From positions 1 through 58,573 of the forward strand of contig RDZG01000084.1 of assembly GCA_004293915.1 (NCBI GenBank): a stretch of DNA of 58,573 nt. Reading direction: 5' to 3'. Below are positions 12,749 through 57,317 of the stretch, piece after piece. Source of the stretch: Bacteroidota bacterium. Its GTDB lineage: Bacteria > Bacteroidota > Bacteroidia > Cytophagales > UBA9547. A program made the position numbers and the translations under genes. Each line of letters starts with the position of its first letter. Positions within the stretch are counted from its first letter, which is position 1. The notes beneath the pieces were generated by a model, which was given only the letters and a program-made list of their open reading frames with translations, ran no database searches and was not told where the DNA came from.

Positions 12749-13342
12749 TCAAAAAACATCATCAAAAACCTCCATTAAATCTATTTCTAAATTAGGTAAG
12801 ATTTTTAATTTTACTTTATCTTCTCTACCATATTTATTAGCTAAAACATAGCTACCGTTAGTAAGCAAATAAACTTCCAAAATGTTTTCGCCAGGATACA
12901 CAACCCAATATTCAGACACACCTGCTTCTTCGTATAATTTGTATTTTACAGTCAAATCTTTTTTTGAAGTAAACGGAGAAAGCACTTCTAAAACAAAGTC
13001 AGGAGCACCGTTACAGCCTCTGGTGTCAATCAATTCGGGATTGCAAACAATGCAAACATCGGGCTGAACAACGGTTGTAATTTCTTTATCAACCAAACTT
13101 CTTTTGAGCCGAACATCAAAAGGTGCAATAAAAACTTTACACTTGTTTTTTTTGAGTTTATAACTGATTTCAGTAAATATCGAACCGGTAATTCGTTGAT
13201 GATAGGTGTTTGGAGCAGGGCTCATTTTATAAATATAGCCTCTCAAAAGTTCGACCATTTCGTCAAAACGCCAAGTTAAATAATCGGCATAAGTATATGT
13301 TTTGGTTAAATCGAGTTGCGAAATATCAGTTATTACAGCCAT
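12749..13342 (-). CDS. Uma2-family restriction-endonuclease-fold protein
   Basis: A 197-residue Uma2 (DUF820) protein with a PD-(D/E)xK-type nuclease core: Asp95 in QPDVCIV, Asp115 and Glu119 in APDFVLEVLSP, and lysines at 133/135, followed by the YEEAGVSEYWVVYP helix-strand typical of the family. The ATG at 13342 is preferred over the in-frame start at 13363, because the longer start would lie within the predicted promoter and because the paralogue at 33344 begins at the equivalent residue (ITDISQLDL). The biological role of Uma2 proteins is not settled; they are common in Bacteroidota and Cyanobacteria in many copies. It lies directly before ariA but has its own promoter. Confidence 0.85.
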   Translation of the reverse strand: MAVITDISQLDLTKTYTYADYLTWRFDEMVELLRGYIYKMSPAPNTYHQRITGSIFTEISYKLKKNKCKVFIAPFDVRLKRSLVDKEITTVVQPDVCIVCNPELIDTRGCNGAPDFVLEVLSPFTSKKDLTVKYKLYEEAGVSEYWVVYPGENILEVYLLTNGSYVLANKYGREDKVKLKILPNLEIDLMEVFDDVF

Positions 13343-33343: not shown

Positions 33344-33946
33344 ATGACAACTATAACCGACATTTCGCAATTAGATTTATCAAAATCATATACCATTGCA
33401 GATTATTTAAGCTGGCAAATGGCTGAAATGGTGGAGTTGATAAAAGGCAAAATATTTAAAATGTCGCCTGCTCCACGAGCTGGGCATCAGTTTGTGTCTT
33501 CAAATGTATTTGGAAACCTTTTTACACTATTACGAAAAAGAAATTCCAAATGTGGAATATTTACTGCTCCATTTGATGTTTATTTACAAGGATTGGATCC
33601 TAAAAAAACAACAGTTGTTCAGCCTGATATTTGTATTATTTGCGATATGAATAAAATAGAAGATCGTGGATGCGTAGGTGCACCCGATTTGATTATCGAA
33701 ATTTTGAGTCCAAGTACACTTCGCAAAGACATTGATATTAAATTTCATTTATATGAAGAAAATGGTGTTCGAGAATATTGGATTGTAAACCCAAAAGAAA
33801 AACAAGTTCTCACACATTTTTTAGATTTTAGTACCAATTTGTATGTAGAAACAGGGAATTATACCGAAGAAATAGAAATTCCTATTGGAATTTGGGAAGG
33901 CAGTTCTATTTTATGGAGCGATATTTTCAAAAATATGCCTGTTTAA
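33344..33946 (+). CDS. Uma2-family restriction-endonuclease-fold protein (second copy)
   Basis: A 200-residue Uma2 (DUF820) protein clearly related to the one at 12749-13342: both begin with ITDISQLDL, share ADYL.W....MVEL..G.I.KMSPAP and the core QPDxCI ... GCxGAPDxxxEx-LSP. PD-(D/E)xK residues are Asp in QPDICII, Asp and Glu in APDLIIEILSP and the lysine in IKFHLYEENG. The role of Uma2 proteins is not settled. It lies between mutS and ppx but has its own promoter. Confidence 0.85.
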   Translation: MTTITDISQLDLSKSYTIADYLSWQMAEMVELIKGKIFKMSPAPRAGHQFVSSNVFGNLFTLLRKRNSKCGIFTAPFDVYLQGLDPKKTTVVQPDICIICDMNKIEDRGCVGAPDLIIEILSPSTLRKDIDIKFHLYEENGVREYWIVNPKEKQVLTHFLDFSTNLYVETGNYTEEIEIPIGIWEGSSILWSDIFKNMPV

Positions 33947-51224: not shown

Positions 51225-51333
51225 TTATTGTAAAATTCAATGTGCGAATATATTGCCAAAACATCTTTGTTGTTGTACAAAAATGATAATAATTTGTATT
51301 TCAAATAGAAATCTTGTTAAAATTGAGTAAAAT

Positions 51334-51786
51334 ATGGAAAATATAAAAATCAGAGAAGGCAAAAAAGAAGATAGTCCTCAAGTTTTTGAACTGATAAAAG
51401 AACTTTCTGTTTTTGAAAAACTCGAACACGAAGTTGAAAACACCATCGAAGGTTTGATTGAAGATGGCTTTGGAACCAATCCACTTTATGGGTTTATCGT
51501 AGCCGAAAATAACCTAAAAATAATTGGACTTTCTTTGTACTATTTTAGGTATTCGACATGGAAACGCAAACGATTATATTTGGAAGATATTATTGTAAAT
51601 GAGGCATTTAGAGGACAAGGTATTGGTAAAAAACTTTTTGAATTTACCATCCAAAAAGCCAAAGACTTGGGATGCTCTGGATTGCAACTTCAGGTTTTAG
51701 ACTGGAATCAACCTGCCATAGATTTTTATAAAAGCTATAACTTAAAACTAGACCCAAGTTGGGTTAATGCAAGTTTGGATTTTTGA
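51334..51786 (+). CDS. GNAT N-acetyltransferase (diamine/SSAT-like)
   Basis: A 150-residue Gcn5-related acetyltransferase. The acetyl-CoA loop is RGQGIGKKL, preceded by LEDIIVNEAF and followed by LQLQVLDWNQPAIDFYKSY, an order and spacing resembling spermidine/spermine or thialysine acetyltransferases (SAT1-like). The last 13 codons and 27 bases beyond the stop occur again, 4900 bases to the right, next to rfbC, so the 3' end of the gene has been duplicated. The gene itself is intact. Substrate is probably a polyamine or an amino acid, by similarity only. Confidence 0.9.
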   Translation: MENIKIREGKKEDSPQVFELIKELSVFEKLEHEVENTIEGLIEDGFGTNPLYGFIVAENNLKIIGLSLYYFRYSTWKRKRLYLEDIIVNEAFRGQGIGKKLFEFTIQKAKDLGCSGLQLQVLDWNQPAIDFYKSYNLKLDPSWVNASLDF

Positions 51787-51813
51787 TATTTTAAATCATA
51801 TTTGCACAAAAAA
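51744..51813. repeat. left copy of the 70-bp GNAT 3'-end duplication
   Basis: Begins AAAACTAGAC and covers the last 13 GNAT codons, the stop and 27 bases beyond. Aligned without gaps to 56644-56713 it shows 64 identical bases out of 70 by my count. The region after the stop contains TTTG (51774) 19 bases before CATATTTG (51797), the same promoter-like pair that precedes rfbC in the right copy, but no plus-strand gene follows here. A palindromic TTGGT...ACCAA unit (51845-51865) follows. Confidence 0.85.
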
Positions 51814-51900
51814 TTCAGCAACAAAAATTTGAATAAATAAATTATTGGTTGGTAAAGGACACCAAAAAAGACTTAAATTTTCAATTCAAGTGACATCTTC

Positions 51901-52539
51901 TTAATTTTTCTTTACTATTTTAATATAGTTTTCAGTATGAAATGTTTCTAAACTTTTAATTAGTTGTAATAGGACATCTCTTTCTTGAATACTTAAATCT
52001 ACCAAAACATCTTGAATAGTTGAAAATTTTTGATATACATTAAATAGTAACGATCTCCCTGAGGTTGTAATTGATATTATTTTTTCTCGTTTATCAGCCA
52101 AATTTACTTTCTCTTCAATAAAACCTTGTTTCACAAGTCGATTAATCATATCTATTCCGGTAGTTACTTCAATAATATTGTCAATAATAATATCTTTTTT
52201 AGTACACGTTTGTTTAATATCCAAATGTGCTAAAAGTGCAAATTCATCACTATTAGTAATTCCTACTTCCTTAAAAACAGGTTTTGTGTAAAATTTCATA
52301 AACTTATAAAGGCGGGTAAGTAAATAAGAGGCTTCCCCACTTTTATAACCAAGATTATTTTCATCACTATTTTTTTTAATATAATTGTCAATATTGACAT
52401 TTATTTCTTGTACTTGACGCTCGGCATTACGGTCTTTAAGCAACCATACTGCAAAATGCTCTAAAGAATTATGGTTTGTTTCTATTAAAAAATCTTCCCA
52501 TTTAGCTATTAATGGTTGATATGAAATGTCTTTTTTCAA
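51901..52539 (-). CDS. MarR family transcriptional regulator
   Basis: A 212-residue winged-helix regulator, longer than the usual 140-170 residues because of an N-terminal helical extension (about 1-80). The DNA-binding part (about 95-165) shows LLAHLDIKQTCTKKDIIIDNIIEVTTGIDMINRLVKQGF (recognition helix) and the wing VNLADKREKIISIT. It is divergent from the TonB receptor gene with a 186-bp gap. A large perfect inverted repeat in this gap surrounds the receptor's -7 box. MarR proteins bind such dyads as dimers and let go on binding a ligand. It most likely represses the receptor gene; the ligand is unknown. Confidence 0.88.
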   Translation of the reverse strand: MKKDISYQPLIAKWEDFLIETNHNSLEHFAVWLLKDRNAERQVQEINVNIDNYIKKNSDENNLGYKSGEASYLLTRLYKFMKFYTKPVFKEVGITNSDEFALLAHLDIKQTCTKKDIIIDNIIEVTTGIDMINRLVKQGFIEEKVNLADKREKIISITTSGRSLLFNVYQKFSTIQDVLVDLSIQERDVLLQLIKSLETFHTENYIKIVKKN

Positions 52540-52655
52540 TTAAAATTTGATTTATTAATAATACGTTATGTTGTAATTTTTTTTAATTAAAGTAGTTTTA
52601 AAACCAAATATCAAACAAATATCATTTTTTTTTAGATATTTTTAAATAAATTTTT

Positions 52656-52703
52656 TAATTAAAATGTTTTCGTTTTATATTTGCATCGAAAACATTTTAA
52701 TTA
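52656..52703. promoter_or_regulatory. 17-bp inverted-repeat operator around the TonB receptor -7 box
   Basis: The arm 52656-52672 (TAATTAAAATGTTTTCG) is the exact reverse complement of 52687-52703. The 14-base centre holds the -7 element TATATTTG at 52676-52683. A protein dimer on these arms would cover the -7 box and the start point (near 52689), and so block transcription. The divergent MarR gene is the obvious candidate for the repressor. Confidence 0.8.
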
Positions 52704-52725
52704 CTAAAAAAAATAATCACTATTT

Positions 52726-55176
52726 ATGAAATCAATTTTACAAAATCGCAAATTTCTTTATATTATTTTTAGTTTTATTATACATTTCTCTTTCGCTCAA
52801 TCAACGGGAATTGTTAGAGGTAAAATAATTGACAAACTTACCAAAGAGCCAATCATTGGTGCACTAATACAATTGGATAGTGCAAAACTAGTAAGCCAAA
52901 CCGATGAAAATGGTGATTTTAAAATTGAAAAAATCCCTGTTGGAAGTTATAATATTAAAATATCTTATATAGGGTATCTATCTCAAACAAAATTTAATAT
53001 AAATATTACTTCAGGAAATGCACAAATACTTGGCTTTGAGCTTGTTGAAGATAGTAAACAATTGGAGGAAGTGGAGGTAACCATCAATAGAAATCGGTTA
53101 GCTTCAATGGCAGATATTATTACTCCATTATCTACGCAAAGTCTTACTACAGAGGAGATTAAAGCAAATCCTGGTGGCAATTTTGATATTTCGAGAGTGG
53201 TTCAAGCCTTACCTGGCGTAGCTGGTTCGCCAACGGGTTTTAGAAACGATATTATTATTAGAGGCGGTGCACCTAATGAAAATGTATTTTATTTAGATGG
53301 CGTAGAAATCCCTGTTATAAATCATTTTCAAACGCAAGGAAGCTCGGGTGGTCCACAAGGACTATTAAATGTGTCATTTATCGAGGATGTAAAACTGAGT
53401 TCATCAGCTTTCAATGCAAAATACGATAATGCACTTGCCTCCACATTTGAATTTAAGCAACGAGAAGGCAATCCAGAGCGATTATCTGGTAACTTGAGAT
53501 TAAGTGCAACCGAACTTGCAGCAACTTTTGAGGGTCCGTTAAGTAAGAAAACAAATTTTATTGTTTCCGCTCGTAGGTCATATTTGCAACTACTTTTTGA
53601 AGCCATTGATTTGCCAATAAGACCAAATTATTGGGATTTTCAATACAAAGTTTCACACCGATTTGATAATAAAACTACTTTAAAATTTATTGGTGTTGGT
53701 GCAATTGATGAGTTTGCATTTGGTAAAACCAGAAAATCTTCACCAGAAAACGAGTATATTTTGCGATCAAATCCGTTTATAAACCAATGGAATTATACTG
53801 TGGGAGCTGTTTTGACACGTTCACTCAACAACGGAAATTTGAATGTTGCCCTAAGCAGAAATATGTTTAATAATGATTTAGATCAATTTGAAGACAGGCA
53901 AACTGGAGATGAAAGTAAACGTACTTTAAAATTAAGGTCTCAAGAAATTGAAAACAAACTTAGAATTGATGTTACAAAATTAAAAAACGGTTGGAAATAT
54001 TCTTATGGAATAGTAGCTCAATATGTGAAATTTAATAATAATATTTCAAATAAACTGCGTAAGGAAATCAAAGATTCTAATGGCAATATTATACAACCCG
54101 AACTTACAATTAACTCAAATACAACCATTGATTTTGTCAAATATGGTGCCTTTGGGCAACTTTCAAAAGGTTTTTTTGCCAATCGACTTACCGCTTCTTT
54201 AGGAATCCGAACGGATATGAATACATTTACAACCGAAGGAAATAACCCATTAAATAATCTTTCGCCTAGGCTATCAATGGCTTATTCGGTTTCTGATAAA
54301 TGGAAAATTAGTGGCTCGGTAGGTTCTTATTCCAAAATTCCAATTTATACTTTATTAGGCTATAAAGCTGCCAATGGTGAATTTGTGAATAAAAACATGA
54401 AATATATTCAATCGATTCATTATGTTGCTGGTGTGGAGTTTTTACCGAAAGAAGATTTGCGATTTACATTAGAAAGTTTCTACAAAGATTATAGCAATTA
54501 TCCTATTTCTAAAAGAACGGGCATTTCGCTAGCTAACCAAGGTACCGAATTTGGAGCTATTGGTAATGAAGAAGTTACTTCGAATGGAAAAGGGCAAGCG
54601 TATGGTTTTGAATTTTATATTCAGAAAAAACTTACTAAAAATATTTTTGCCATTTTCTCCTATACTTTTGTAAGAAGTTTATTTTCTGGTTCTAACGGAG
54701 TTTTAATTGCCTCATCTTGGGATAATAGACACTTGATTTCTGGAATAATTGGCAGAAAATTCAAAAAAGGATGGGAAATTGGACTTAAATATAGATTTGC
54801 AGCAGGGGCTCCATATACGCCTTTCGATGATGTAACTTCTCAAAGAAATTATCAAACCATTGGTGTTGGCACTTTAGATGTATCTCAACTTAATTCATTA
54901 AGGCTTGCAAATTTTAATCAATTTGATTTTAGAGGCTCTAAAACTTGGAATTTTAATAAATGGAGTTTTCAATTATATATGGATATTCAAAATGCTTTTA
55001 GGTTTAATACGCCAAGTTTTCCTCAATACACTTTCAAAAGAACAGAAGATAATAGTGCATTTGCAACTAGCGATGGAAACGTAATTGCTCAAGATGGATC
55101 AAATGCAATTCCTGTAATTTTACAAAACAACGATCCAGTATTTTTACCATCTTTTGGGTTTATAGCAGAATTTTAG
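52726..55176 (+). CDS. TonB-dependent outer-membrane receptor
   Basis: An 816-residue receptor for energised uptake across the outer membrane. Signal peptide 1-24 (ends SFAQ); a carboxypeptidase-regulatory-like domain (about 27-115) with GIVRGKIIDKLTKEPIIGA and DENGDFKIEKIPVGSY; a plug domain (about 125-250) with VVQALPGVAGSP, IIIRGGAPNENVFYLDGVEIP; then a 22-strand-type barrel ending in a terminal Phe (FIAEF). No SusD partner follows, so it is not a classical glycan pair; a siderophore, metal complex, vitamin or small-molecule ligand is possible. Expression is probably governed by the MarR operator in the promoter. Confidence 0.93.
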   Translation: MKSILQNRKFLYIIFSFIIHFSFAQSTGIVRGKIIDKLTKEPIIGALIQLDSAKLVSQTDENGDFKIEKIPVGSYNIKISYIGYLSQTKFNINITSGNAQILGFELVEDSKQLEEVEVTINRNRLASMADIITPLSTQSLTTEEIKANPGGNFDISRVVQALPGVAGSPTGFRNDIIIRGGAPNENVFYLDGVEIPVINHFQTQGSSGGPQGLLNVSFIEDVKLSSSAFNAKYDNALASTFEFKQREGNPERLSGNLRLSATELAATFEGPLSKKTNFIVSARRSYLQLLFEAIDLPIRPNYWDFQYKVSHRFDNKTTLKFIGVGAIDEFAFGKTRKSSPENEYILRSNPFINQWNYTVGAVLTRSLNNGNLNVALSRNMFNNDLDQFEDRQTGDESKRTLKLRSQEIENKLRIDVTKLKNGWKYSYGIVAQYVKFNNNISNKLRKEIKDSNGNIIQPELTINSNTTIDFVKYGAFGQLSKGFFANRLTASLGIRTDMNTFTTEGNNPLNNLSPRLSMAYSVSDKWKISGSVGSYSKIPIYTLLGYKAANGEFVNKNMKYIQSIHYVAGVEFLPKEDLRFTLESFYKDYSNYPISKRTGISLANQGTEFGAIGNEEVTSNGKGQAYGFEFYIQKKLTKNIFAIFSYTFVRSLFSGSNGVLIASSWDNRHLISGIIGRKFKKGWEIGLKYRFAAGAPYTPFDDVTSQRNYQTIGVGTLDVSQLNSLRLANFNQFDFRGSKTWNFNKWSFQLYMDIQNAFRFNTPSFPQYTFKRTEDNSAFATSDGNVIAQDGSNAIPVILQNNDPVFLPSFGFIAEF

Positions 55177-55263
55177 TTTATAGAAAAGCCCATATAGCTA
55201 CATTTTAAAGGTAAATTACAAAATATTTCCGCATTTGTTGGACTTTCTCCTTTGCTTATGTTG

Positions 55264-55437
55264 TTCACCAACAAAACTTTTAAAAGCTTACGAAAATCCA
55301 ATGAAAGCGGGAATTTGCAATACAATTATATTAATCTGCAAAATAGTATGAGTTTAATCAATCTGAATGGACATTTTTGTCTAGTTTATTTGAATACTAT
55401 TTGATTTATTGTTGAAAAGAACTCCAATAAAGGCGGA
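55264..55437. repeat. copy A of a ~175-bp direct repeat (gene-free stretch 55177-55533)
   Basis: The segment starting TTCACCAACAAAACTTTTAA and ending CCAATAAAGGCGGA recurs at 56466-56644 with about nine of ten bases identical and a few small indels. No coding frame is preserved. Both ends carry short GTTGGT/ACCAAC-type palindromes, which gives it the look of a small non-autonomous (MITE-like) element. It lies between the TonB receptor and the unknown membrane-anchored gene. Confidence 0.8.
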
Positions 55438-55455
55438 ATACTTTTAAAGTTGATG

Positions 55456-55516
55456 CTTGTTGGTCAAAAAGAAGACCAACAAGGGCAGGAAAGCCACATT
55501 ATTTGTGGCTTTTTGT
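55456..55516 (+). terminator. palindrome plus rho-independent terminator
   Basis: CTTGTTGGTC (55456-55465) and GACCAACAAG (55474-55483) form a perfect 10-bp hairpin of the same family as the repeat ends nearby. Immediately after, AAAGCCACA (55490-55498) and TGTGGCTTT (55504-55512) form a 9-bp stem followed by T's, a plus-strand terminator. It could end the TonB receptor transcript about 310 bases after its stop. Confidence 0.65.
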
Positions 55517-55533
55517 CTACAAGGCTGCCTAAT

Positions 55534-56082
55534 CTATTTATTATTGGGTTTATGCAAATCAATATCAGCAACTCTCATACCTAATTCTATTAATATGGCA
55601 TCTCGCCACTCCAATGATAATACATATAATAATGTATAAACGTCTCTTCCTGTAAGAAATGCTGCATTTTCGAGTTCGTATTTTAAAATTCCTTCTTTTC
55701 CGTATCCAGTTATTATCTCTATTAATAGTTGTTGTGCTTGGTAGGAATTCTCAGGATTTCTTTCTTTCAATTTTACTAAAATCTCAGCTCTGTAGTTAGC
55801 CATTAATTCAGCAATATGGCTTTCTTTTAATATTTTTAAGCCTACATCGTTTAGGTATATGGGAGATTTTTGTACTGAAAATTGCATTCCCCACACGGTA
55901 TCTACTCTATCTGTCAATACAGGTAAAACGGCTATTTTTTCATTAATACTTCCAATGTTATCAACTAACATATCTACCTTTGATTCTATACTAGTTGCTT
56001 TTCTAACAATTAATACGATACCAGTTATTACAGTTCCTATAACCGCTAAAAATCCTAAAAATTCTTCTATTGAGATATACAT
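55534..56082 (-). CDS. unknown membrane-anchored protein flanked by direct repeats
   Basis: A 182-residue protein: a single N-terminal membrane helix (about 8-26), a coiled-coil-like linker (about 30-65) and a mostly helical soluble domain (about 70-175) with the recurring stretch VWGMQFSVQKSPIYLNDVGLKILKES. I do not know a named family; I recall similar hypothetical proteins in accessory DNA. It is transcribed against its neighbours and lies between the two ~175-bp direct repeats, as cargo would. A possible -7 box for it (TATTTTTG on the minus strand) is at 56279-56272, rather far upstream. Confidence 0.6.
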   Translation of the reverse strand: MYISIEEFLGFLAVIGTVITGIVLIVRKATSIESKVDMLVDNIGSINEKIAVLPVLTDRVDTVWGMQFSVQKSPIYLNDVGLKILKESHIAELMANYRAEILVKLKERNPENSYQAQQLLIEIITGYGKEGILKYELENAAFLTGRDVYTLLYVLSLEWRDAILIELGMRVADIDLHKPNNK

Positions 56083-56452
56083 TTTACTCTTAAAATATAT
56101 CTGTTAAACATCCATTTACAAAATTGGTTGCACAAATAAAACTAAAATATTGAACATTGAGCAATATTCTTCTATATAATCAATAAATATGTTGGTTAAT
56201 TCTACTTTAACATATTGATTCCATGGATAACTCTTCAATAAAAAGCAGTTAATTTATAACATCGAAAACGACAAAAATATAGTTAAAAAAAGAACCCTTA
56301 ACCTTAAATATAGACCTTTATGCTAAATGCACCCCTGATGCCGTTAAACATCGGCTTTACAAATATAATAATCTAACGAGAATAAAAATTTACAAATCTC
56401 ATTTAAAGAACTTTGCAATTCACGCTTAACGCTATATTCTATACTATCTGAC

Positions 56453-56644
56453 TTTGTTGGTGTTCTTCACCAACAAAACTTTTAAAAGCTTACGAAAATC
56501 CAATAAAAGCAGGAATTTGCAATACAATTATATTAATCTGAAAATAGTATGAGTTGAATCTATCTGAATGGACATTTTTGTCTAGTTTTTATTTGAATAA
56601 TATTTGATTGAATTGTTGGTAAAAAGAACTCCAATAAAGGCGGA
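56453..56644. repeat. copy B of the ~175-bp direct repeat (gene-free stretch 56083-56725)
   Basis: Starts with a perfect 10-bp hairpin, TTTGTTGGTG (56453-56462) and CACCAACAAA (56468-56477), and continues with the repeat unit up to GGCGGA at 56644, where the GNAT 3'-end duplication begins at once. Copy A's hairpin has decayed to GTTG/CAAC. The stretch 56083-56452 is AT-rich and shows no gene; it probably holds the promoter of the unknown membrane-anchored gene. Confidence 0.8.
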
Positions 56645-56713
56645 AAACTAGACTCAAATTGTGTAAATGCAATTTTGGATTTTTGATATTTTAACTCATA
56701 TTTGCACAAAAAA
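56644..56713 (+). repeat. right copy of the 70-bp GNAT 3'-end duplication, with the rfbC promoter
   Basis: Translated in the GNAT frame it still reads KLDSNCVNAILDF-stop, against KLDPSWVNASLDF-stop in the intact gene, so it is a remnant of the gene's end. It carries TTTG at 56674-56677, a 19-base spacer and CATATTTG at 56697-56704 (one base off TAnnTTTG), the likely promoter of rfbC, with a start near 56710. The order GNAT-rfbC was therefore probably the ancestral one. Confidence 0.8.
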
Positions 56714-56725
56714 CGAGCAAAAAAA

Positions 56726-57265
56726 ATGGAATTTAAGTTTTGTGATATTGATGGTTTAGTAGAGATTCAACCTCGTGTTTTTAAAGACGAACGTGGTTAT
56801 TTTTTTGAATCTTACAGCGAATCGGTTTTTGCTCAACAAGGTTTAACTATGCAATTTGTGCAAGACAATCAATCTTTTTCTACAAAAGGAGTTTTAAGAG
56901 GTTTACATCTTCAAAAAGAGCCATTTGCACAAGGCAAATTAGTAAGAGTTATTTCTGGGAAAGTACTCGATGTGGTAGTTGATATTCGCAAAAACTCTAA
57001 AACTTTAGGAAAAAGTTATTCTGTATTATTAGATTCCGAAAAGCAAAATATGTTTTATGTTCCTCCGGGTTTTGCTCATGGTTTTGTGTGTTTTGAGGAT
57101 TCAATTTTTTCGTATAAATGCACAAAAGGCTATAATAAAGCCTCAGAATCAGGAATTTTATGGAACGACCCAGCACTTAAAATTGATTGGCAAGTTGAAA
57201 AACCTTTAGTAAATACCAAAGACCAAGAGCTACCAACTTTTGAAGAATTGATGAAAACTTTGTAG
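56726..57265 (+). CDS. rfbC: dTDP-4-dehydrorhamnose 3,5-epimerase
   Basis: Third enzyme of dTDP-L-rhamnose synthesis, a cupin-fold epimerase in the cytoplasm. The family core is clear: DERGYFFESY, VQDNQSFSTKGVLRGLHLQ with the catalytic histidine, GKLVRVISGKVLDVVVDIR, and FYVPPGFAHGFVCFEDS. The ATG at 56726 gives 179 residues, the usual length; an in-frame TTG at 56702 lies in the promoter. No other rml genes (A, B, D) are beside it. The gene is followed by ftsW after 52 bases. Rhamnose of the surface polysaccharide would be the end use. Confidence 0.95.
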   Translation: MEFKFCDIDGLVEIQPRVFKDERGYFFESYSESVFAQQGLTMQFVQDNQSFSTKGVLRGLHLQKEPFAQGKLVRVISGKVLDVVVDIRKNSKTLGKSYSVLLDSEKQNMFYVPPGFAHGFVCFEDSIFSYKCTKGYNKASESGILWNDPALKIDWQVEKPLVNTKDQELPTFEELMKTL

Positions 57266-57317
57266 TTGTTTATAAATTGCCAAAATAAGGTATTAATTAT
57301 GCTCATTATTTATCCCA

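Follow-up and report, generated by a model that had tools for sequence, protein, structure and literature searches.

A GNAT gene end duplicated in front of rfbC: a possible rearrangement scar at RAYT-derived repeats in a Bacteroidota genome

We analysed a 58,573-nucleotide stretch of DNA, called the window below, from a Bacteroidota bacterium (Cytophagales, UBA9547; assembly GCA_004293915.1, contig RDZG01000084.1). Towards its right end, a 70-bp segment that includes the 3' end of a GNAT acetyltransferase gene occurs a second time in front of rfbC, and the origin of this direct repeat is the subject of this report. The DNA between the two copies contains a MarR-type regulator gene, a TonB-dependent receptor gene, an orphan gene and two elements, R1 and R2, derived from a REP-associated tyrosine transposase (RAYT; REP, repetitive extragenic palindromic). 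The features are collected in the table.

Table. Features of the GNAT-rfbC region; positions are those of the window.
Feature	Position	Strand	Remarks
GNAT acetyltransferase gene, intact	51334..51786	+	Pfam PF00583, E=4.6e-19; 65% identical orthologue in congener G001
Left 70-bp copy	51744..51813	+	TTTG 51774-51777, N19, CATATTTG 51797-51804
Degenerate hairpin of REP type, some 30 bases beyond the left copy	51845..51870	+	E=0.005 with the outside-window profile, E=0.017 with the first profile
MarR-type regulator, 212 aa, TTG start	51901..52539	-	Weak matches to winged helix-turn-helix PF13463 and NCBIfam MarR-family models, all below cut-off
TonB-dependent receptor with CarboxypepD_reg and Plug domains	52726..55176	+	PF13715, E=2.6e-18; PF07715, E=1.5e-8
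R1, internally deleted RAYT element	55228..55442	+	5' REP hairpin with altered loop, transposase gene 3' end, 3' REP hairpin
Half of a second REP-type unit	55446..55492	+	Hairpin TTGTTGGTC...GACCAACAA; also on contigs C27 and C100; fold -17.3 kcal/mol
Orphan 182-aa protein	55534..56082	-	N-terminal hydrophobic stretch by eye
R2, sister of R1	56447..56643	+	3' end AAAGGCGG, then AA common to the right 70-bp copy
Right 70-bp copy, decayed GNAT codons and presumed rfbC promoter	56644..56713	+	TTTG 56674-56677, N19, CATATTTG 56697-56704
rfbC / rmlC, dTDP-4-dehydrorhamnose 3,5-epimerase	56726..57265	+	PF00908, E=1.7e-67; TIGR01221 above cut-off

The repeat had been pointed out in a preliminary description of this DNA, and we confirmed it by a repeat scan and a base count. 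The two copies are spaced by 4900 bp and are identical at 64 of 70 bases (91.4%), with the six mismatches at 51754, 51758, 51762, 51765, 51773 and 51795 (left-copy coordinates). Background matches between 70-mers on the + strand had a mean of 20.4 and a standard deviation of 4.0 of 70 bases. Because the next best ungapped match in the window reached 36/70 on the + strand and 38/70 at most on the - strand, the repeat is not a product of chance. When the whole draft genome (3.85 Mb, 156 contigs) was searched with a 161-base query containing the repeat, these two places alone were reported among the best 40 of 162 candidates. As in our other genome searches, part of the candidates was scored, and absence is not to be taken as absolute. 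Across ten genomes of the family, this one included, the further matches were three pieces of 31-37 bases in two congeners (E 7e-4 to 9e-4), and the 70-bp core was not found at a third place in its own genome or in the nine others. Within reach of these searches, the segment is not a repeat dispersed over unrelated places.

Each copy consists of one leading base, 13 GNAT codons, the stop codon and 27 following bases, so that the first 43 bases are the GNAT gene end. The left copy translates as KLDPSWVNASLDF and the right copy as KLDSNCVNAILDF, each followed by the stop. Five of the six mismatches are located in the GNAT codons, and four of those change the amino acid. The left copy ends SWVNASLDF, as compared with SWYNASLNF in the orthologue of congener G001, and the right copy reads NCVNAILDF. 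Since the left copy resembles the orthologue and the right one has drifted, the left copy is the working GNAT end. Judged by these substitutions, the right copy seems to be freed from the GNAT coding constraint.

Both copies also hold a promoter-like sequence, TTTG-N19-CATATTTG (51774-51804 and 56674-56704), whose TTTG element falls inside the GNAT codons. In Bacteroidota promoters TTTG is the -33 box, at a set spacing from the -7 box. The accessible part of PMC9723704 gives the latter as TAnnTTTG, from which CATATTTG deviates at one of the six fixed bases. The right promoter-like sequence precedes rfbC, in agreement with the preliminary description, which had assigned the rfbC promoter to this copy. 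Behind the left copy, no + strand open reading frame (ORF) of at least 60 aa starts before 52726. A scan for sigma-70 promoters and terminators gave about as many sites as shuffled sequences did, and Rfam contained no family that reached its gathering score in 51300-57300.

A second and larger repeat pair, absent from the preliminary description, was found beside the right copy. R1 (55250-55442) and R2 (56452-56649) are 91.0% identical over 199 columns, with R1 lying 1.2 kb to the left of R2. The right 70-bp copy adjoins R2 without a gap. The 3' end that the element usually has is AAAGGCGGAA, of which the final two bases also open the right copy; similarity between R1 and R2 continues as far as 56649 and so covers six bases of that copy. 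The joint is therefore ambiguous over about six bases (56644-56649). Three things meet at this junction: an element of RAYT origin, the copied end of GNAT, and rfbC. We found further R copies outside the window at five places with E<1e-30 (contigs C27, C97, C121, C74 and C96; E 1.6e-55 to 2.5e-32), three of them at contig ends, together with hairpin fragments, among the best 40 of 118 candidates. R1 and R2 have in common an 11-nt deletion that is absent in the five other copies spanning the site (four in this genome, one in congener G002), so one of the two was probably made from the other. We also considered whether R2 had been inserted into a longer GNAT copy, and rejected this: the left flank of R2 had no GNAT similarity, and 42% of 300 random places scored as high.

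The longer R copies were read and translated, and the 3' end of a transposase gene was found between their hairpins. An intact parent is represented by an element of congener G002, in which REP hairpins flank an open RAYT frame of 171 aa. This protein, which was submitted to the family searches without its first codon, matched NF047646 (REP-associated tyrosine transposase) with E=2.9e-22 and 79.1 bits, the cut-off being 80, and Pfam Y1_Tnp weakly (E=0.046). A weak match below cut-off to a herpesvirus antigen model was taken as chance. Alignment to the G002 element traced R1 and R2 to a RAYT gene with an HUH motif, and a copy on contig C153 of the same genome reads SNHIHVIWQ. A similar deleted form is present on C27. 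Three further Y1_Tnp matches above cut-off were seen on C2, C84 and C23. Draft contigs end within RAYT copies (C129:50160-50601, L049; C153:1-500, L048; and the ends of C97, L044, C74, L046, and C121, L045), and for this reason the element may be multi-copy in this genome. RAYTs are described as single-copy in the accessible part of PMC3116915.

We then mapped REP-like hairpins with a profile made from 12 hairpins outside the window. It gave six matches at E<=0.005, all of them between the 70-bp copies, followed by a next match at E=1.1; one of the six ends three bases into the right copy. Hairpins were found by this profile at both ends of R1 and R2 (55227-55281, 55401-55437, 56447-56483 and 56608-56646). 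An earlier profile, which contained the 3' hairpins of R1 and R2 and hence matched those two by construction, gave the same six places. The hairpin near the left copy (51845-51870) matches an R hairpin at 22 of 26 bases (E=0.031) and has a weak fold (-4.1 kcal/mol). Exact hairpins are rare in the genome, with 15 sites against 2 for a reversed control pattern. Another REPIN-like unit, about 110 bp long and bearing the unlike hairpins TTGGTGTTCTTCACCAA and TTGGTCAAAAAGAAGACCAA, was seen at L043:6022-6130 and L052:5430-5549, and half of it is apparently present in the window at 55446-55492. A terminator-like hairpin (GCCACA-TTATT-TGTGGC, then T) was noticed by eye at 55491-55513, between R1 and the orphan gene, and is unlisted by the terminator scan.

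To place the intervening genes, we compared them with 38 related genomes (G001-G038), of which G001 and G002 are congeners. Near-full-length relatives of the receptor were present in 16 of the 38, with 36-67% identity (67% in G006), and more distant ones exist. In six of them (G006, G012, G019, G023, G029, G031), which represent several families of the order, the receptor gene is accompanied by a divergently oriented MarR-type gene next to it. The surroundings of this pair differ from those in the window: over 10-16 kb in G006, G012, G029 and G031, none of the 43 window ORFs of at least 100 aa, the pair itself apart, had a match nearby. G012 and G031, which belong to one genus, have neighbours of the pair in common. 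The pair was not found in either congener, no match to marR was found in them, and their receptor matches were partial or distant: 37% over 22-335 in G001 (among the best 25 of 35 candidates), and 33% over 11-340 and 26% over 9-756 in G002. A Hymenobacter plasmid carries a 52% relative of the receptor, and directly next to this gene no marR is annotated. The orphan protein had no match at E<=0.001 in Pfam, NCBIfam, PHROGs or PADLOC, none in the 38 relatives and none in plasmids. It had no confirmed relative in viral contigs; one match, weak and partial (30%, E=2e-4), was to a Megaira phage protein annotated as hypothetical. Two features make the DNA between the copies look like a distinct block: a divergent marR-TonB module, seen in relatives with other neighbours and in neither congener, and the full set of six REP-like hairpins.

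The preliminary description had proposed an ancestral GNAT-rfbC neighbourhood that was later split. Both genes were found in 25 of the 38 relatives and were adjacent in none: in 8 they lie on one contig, at least about 27 kb apart, and in 17 on different contigs of drafts. No GNAT match (E<=1e-6) was present at 56 rfbC loci with flanks of up to 10 kb, many of them not from close relatives, or at 19 further rfbC loci, taken from relatives. Conversely, no rfbC (E<=1e-5) was found at the GNAT loci of 36 relatives, with flanks of about 1.5 kb and less at contig ends. In G001 the distance from the GNAT gene to a contig end is about 350 bases, and such draft ends limit the adjacency test. By eye, the bases directly behind the G001 GNAT gene are unlike the 70-bp repeat. 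In both congeners rfbC stands beside another gene, which we take to be yqeY-like, and neither of these two genomes keeps the GNAT-rfbC neighbourhood of the window. An empty site, with GNAT followed directly by rfbC, was thus looked for in these relatives, two of them congeners, and not found; a closer relative may still have one. The comparisons give no support to the ancestral neighbourhood: adjacency is missing, rfbC has another neighbour in both congeners, and the repeat extends weakly towards the rfbC start, as described below.

Our preferred reading, which we hold with moderate confidence, is that the 70-bp repeat is a rearrangement scar at RAYT/REP repeats, of which the right copy survives as the rfbC promoter, and not an att site. 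It is based on the start of the right copy within a few bases of the 3' end of a defective R2, and on the REP-dense DNA between the copies with its marR-TonB module that relatives carry elsewhere. From this anatomy we infer that RAYT-derived repeats recombined, or that replication switched template at them; the marR-TonB-orf182 block would thereby have come to lie between GNAT and rfbC, with a second GNAT end left there. The left copy would have been kept as the C-terminus that GNAT needs, while the right one would have lost its coding constraint and been kept as the rfbC promoter. A single event for both duplications is compatible with the similar identities of R1/R2 (91.0%) and of the 70-bp copies (91.4%). 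Segmental duplication, which the preliminary description had named last among its alternatives, fits best.

Several points weigh against this reading. The order of events is an inference, as our searches found neither an empty site nor a donor locus. The position of R2 is not explained by a simple later insertion into a longer copy of GNAT, as GNAT homology is lacking to its left. The equal divergence of two short repeats is a weak means of dating, and the REP hairpin on the left is degenerate (E=0.005). Finally, inheritance of the marR-TonB block, followed by its loss in the congeners, could also account for the pattern, since its closest relative (67%) belongs to the same family.

A clearly less probable alternative, though one with evidence of its own, is that rfbC was never beside GNAT but moved here in this lineage, its promoter coming from a copy of the GNAT end that was joined to R2. 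Both the lack of GNAT-rfbC adjacency in the 25 relatives and the other rfbC neighbour in the two congeners agree with such a capture. So does the fact that the repeat stops just past the promoter: the anchored score of its extension towards the rfbC start was 8, which was matched by 7 of 109 start contexts and by 4.35% of 2000 shuffles. On the other hand, a looser test of this extension against random 30-mers gave 1.8%, which favours homology, although homology of the extension is suggestive at most. The captured fragment would also have carried a ready promoter by luck, with no gene closely following the left copy, and the unlike bases behind the G001 GNAT gene speak against a capture as well.

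We consider it unlikely that a segment with the GNAT end and the rfbC start was duplicated in tandem and its middle then deleted and filled. The direct-repeat geometry and the second local duplication, R1/R2, would suit such a history, but it requires further deletions, of which no trace was seen, and there is no GNAT homology to the left of R2. Somewhat more doubtful still is a single-strand transposition of R2 that ran past its 3' end and carried the GNAT end and promoter to a place before rfbC, as would be expected of a RAYT system that both captures promoters and delivers them.

Integrative elements at gene 3' ends are flanked by attL/attR. The locus resembles this arrangement in having a gene 3' end at both borders, duplicated and with the left gene whole, and the preliminary description had accordingly likened the copies to attL/attR. 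It differs in that no recombinase was found in the 4.8 kb between them, that no other insertion at this core was found, and that the inner border on the right is set by the end of a RAYT-derived element. None of the ORFs in 51.3-57.3 kb (GNAT, MarR, TonB receptor, orphan and rfbC) matched a recombinase family, a search that was not extended to the rest of the genome. The same 70-bp borders, looked for in this and nine other family genomes, were found at no other locus. A minimal or decayed integrative element is therefore very improbable. Least credible is an assembly artefact at the repeated R sequences: contig ends of the draft do coincide with three of the five strong R copies found beyond the window, but the six differences between the 70-bp copies and about 9% between R1 and R2 mark them as distinct sequences, inside one contig.

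Elsewhere in the window, the proteins at 12749-13342 and 33344-33946, presumably of Uma2 type, resemble the products of three similar genes that follow one another in G001 (L151:1710-3522).

The type of event is already known, and the locus is a new example, of interest for its RAYT remnants and for a gene end re-used as a promoter. It would imply that rearranged blocks in Bacteroidota can be bordered by RAYT/REP remnants, that a copied gene end can persist as the promoter of another gene, and that finding a gene 3' end directly repeated does not by itself establish an att site. Among known systems, the accessible part of PMC6006769 describes RAYT subclass 2.6 of the HUH superfamily as mostly found in Bacteroidetes, with the motifs NH[LIV]H, WQ and YIH[QN]NP. 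The copies studied here read NHIH, WQ and YIHENP, with E replacing Q/N in the last motif. In both systems, the gene is flanked by hairpins that lack the canonical GT[AG]G foot and are found again elsewhere in the genome. A further difference lies in the dispersed copies with internal deletions and a retained transposase 3' end, which that part of the source does not mention. CGTC-tagged REPs, which PMC3733652 (in its accessible part) reports for several phyla including Bacteroidetes, are likewise short palindromic repeats of the same phylum, but the foot here is GCCTTTG and not CGTC. REPINs are REP doublets that form miniature non-autonomous mobile DNA, according to the accessible text of PMC3116915. 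R1 and R2 are similar in being short non-autonomous units between two inverted REP hairpins, but they keep about 120 bp of the transposase gene and therefore look like deletion derivatives of an insertion sequence.

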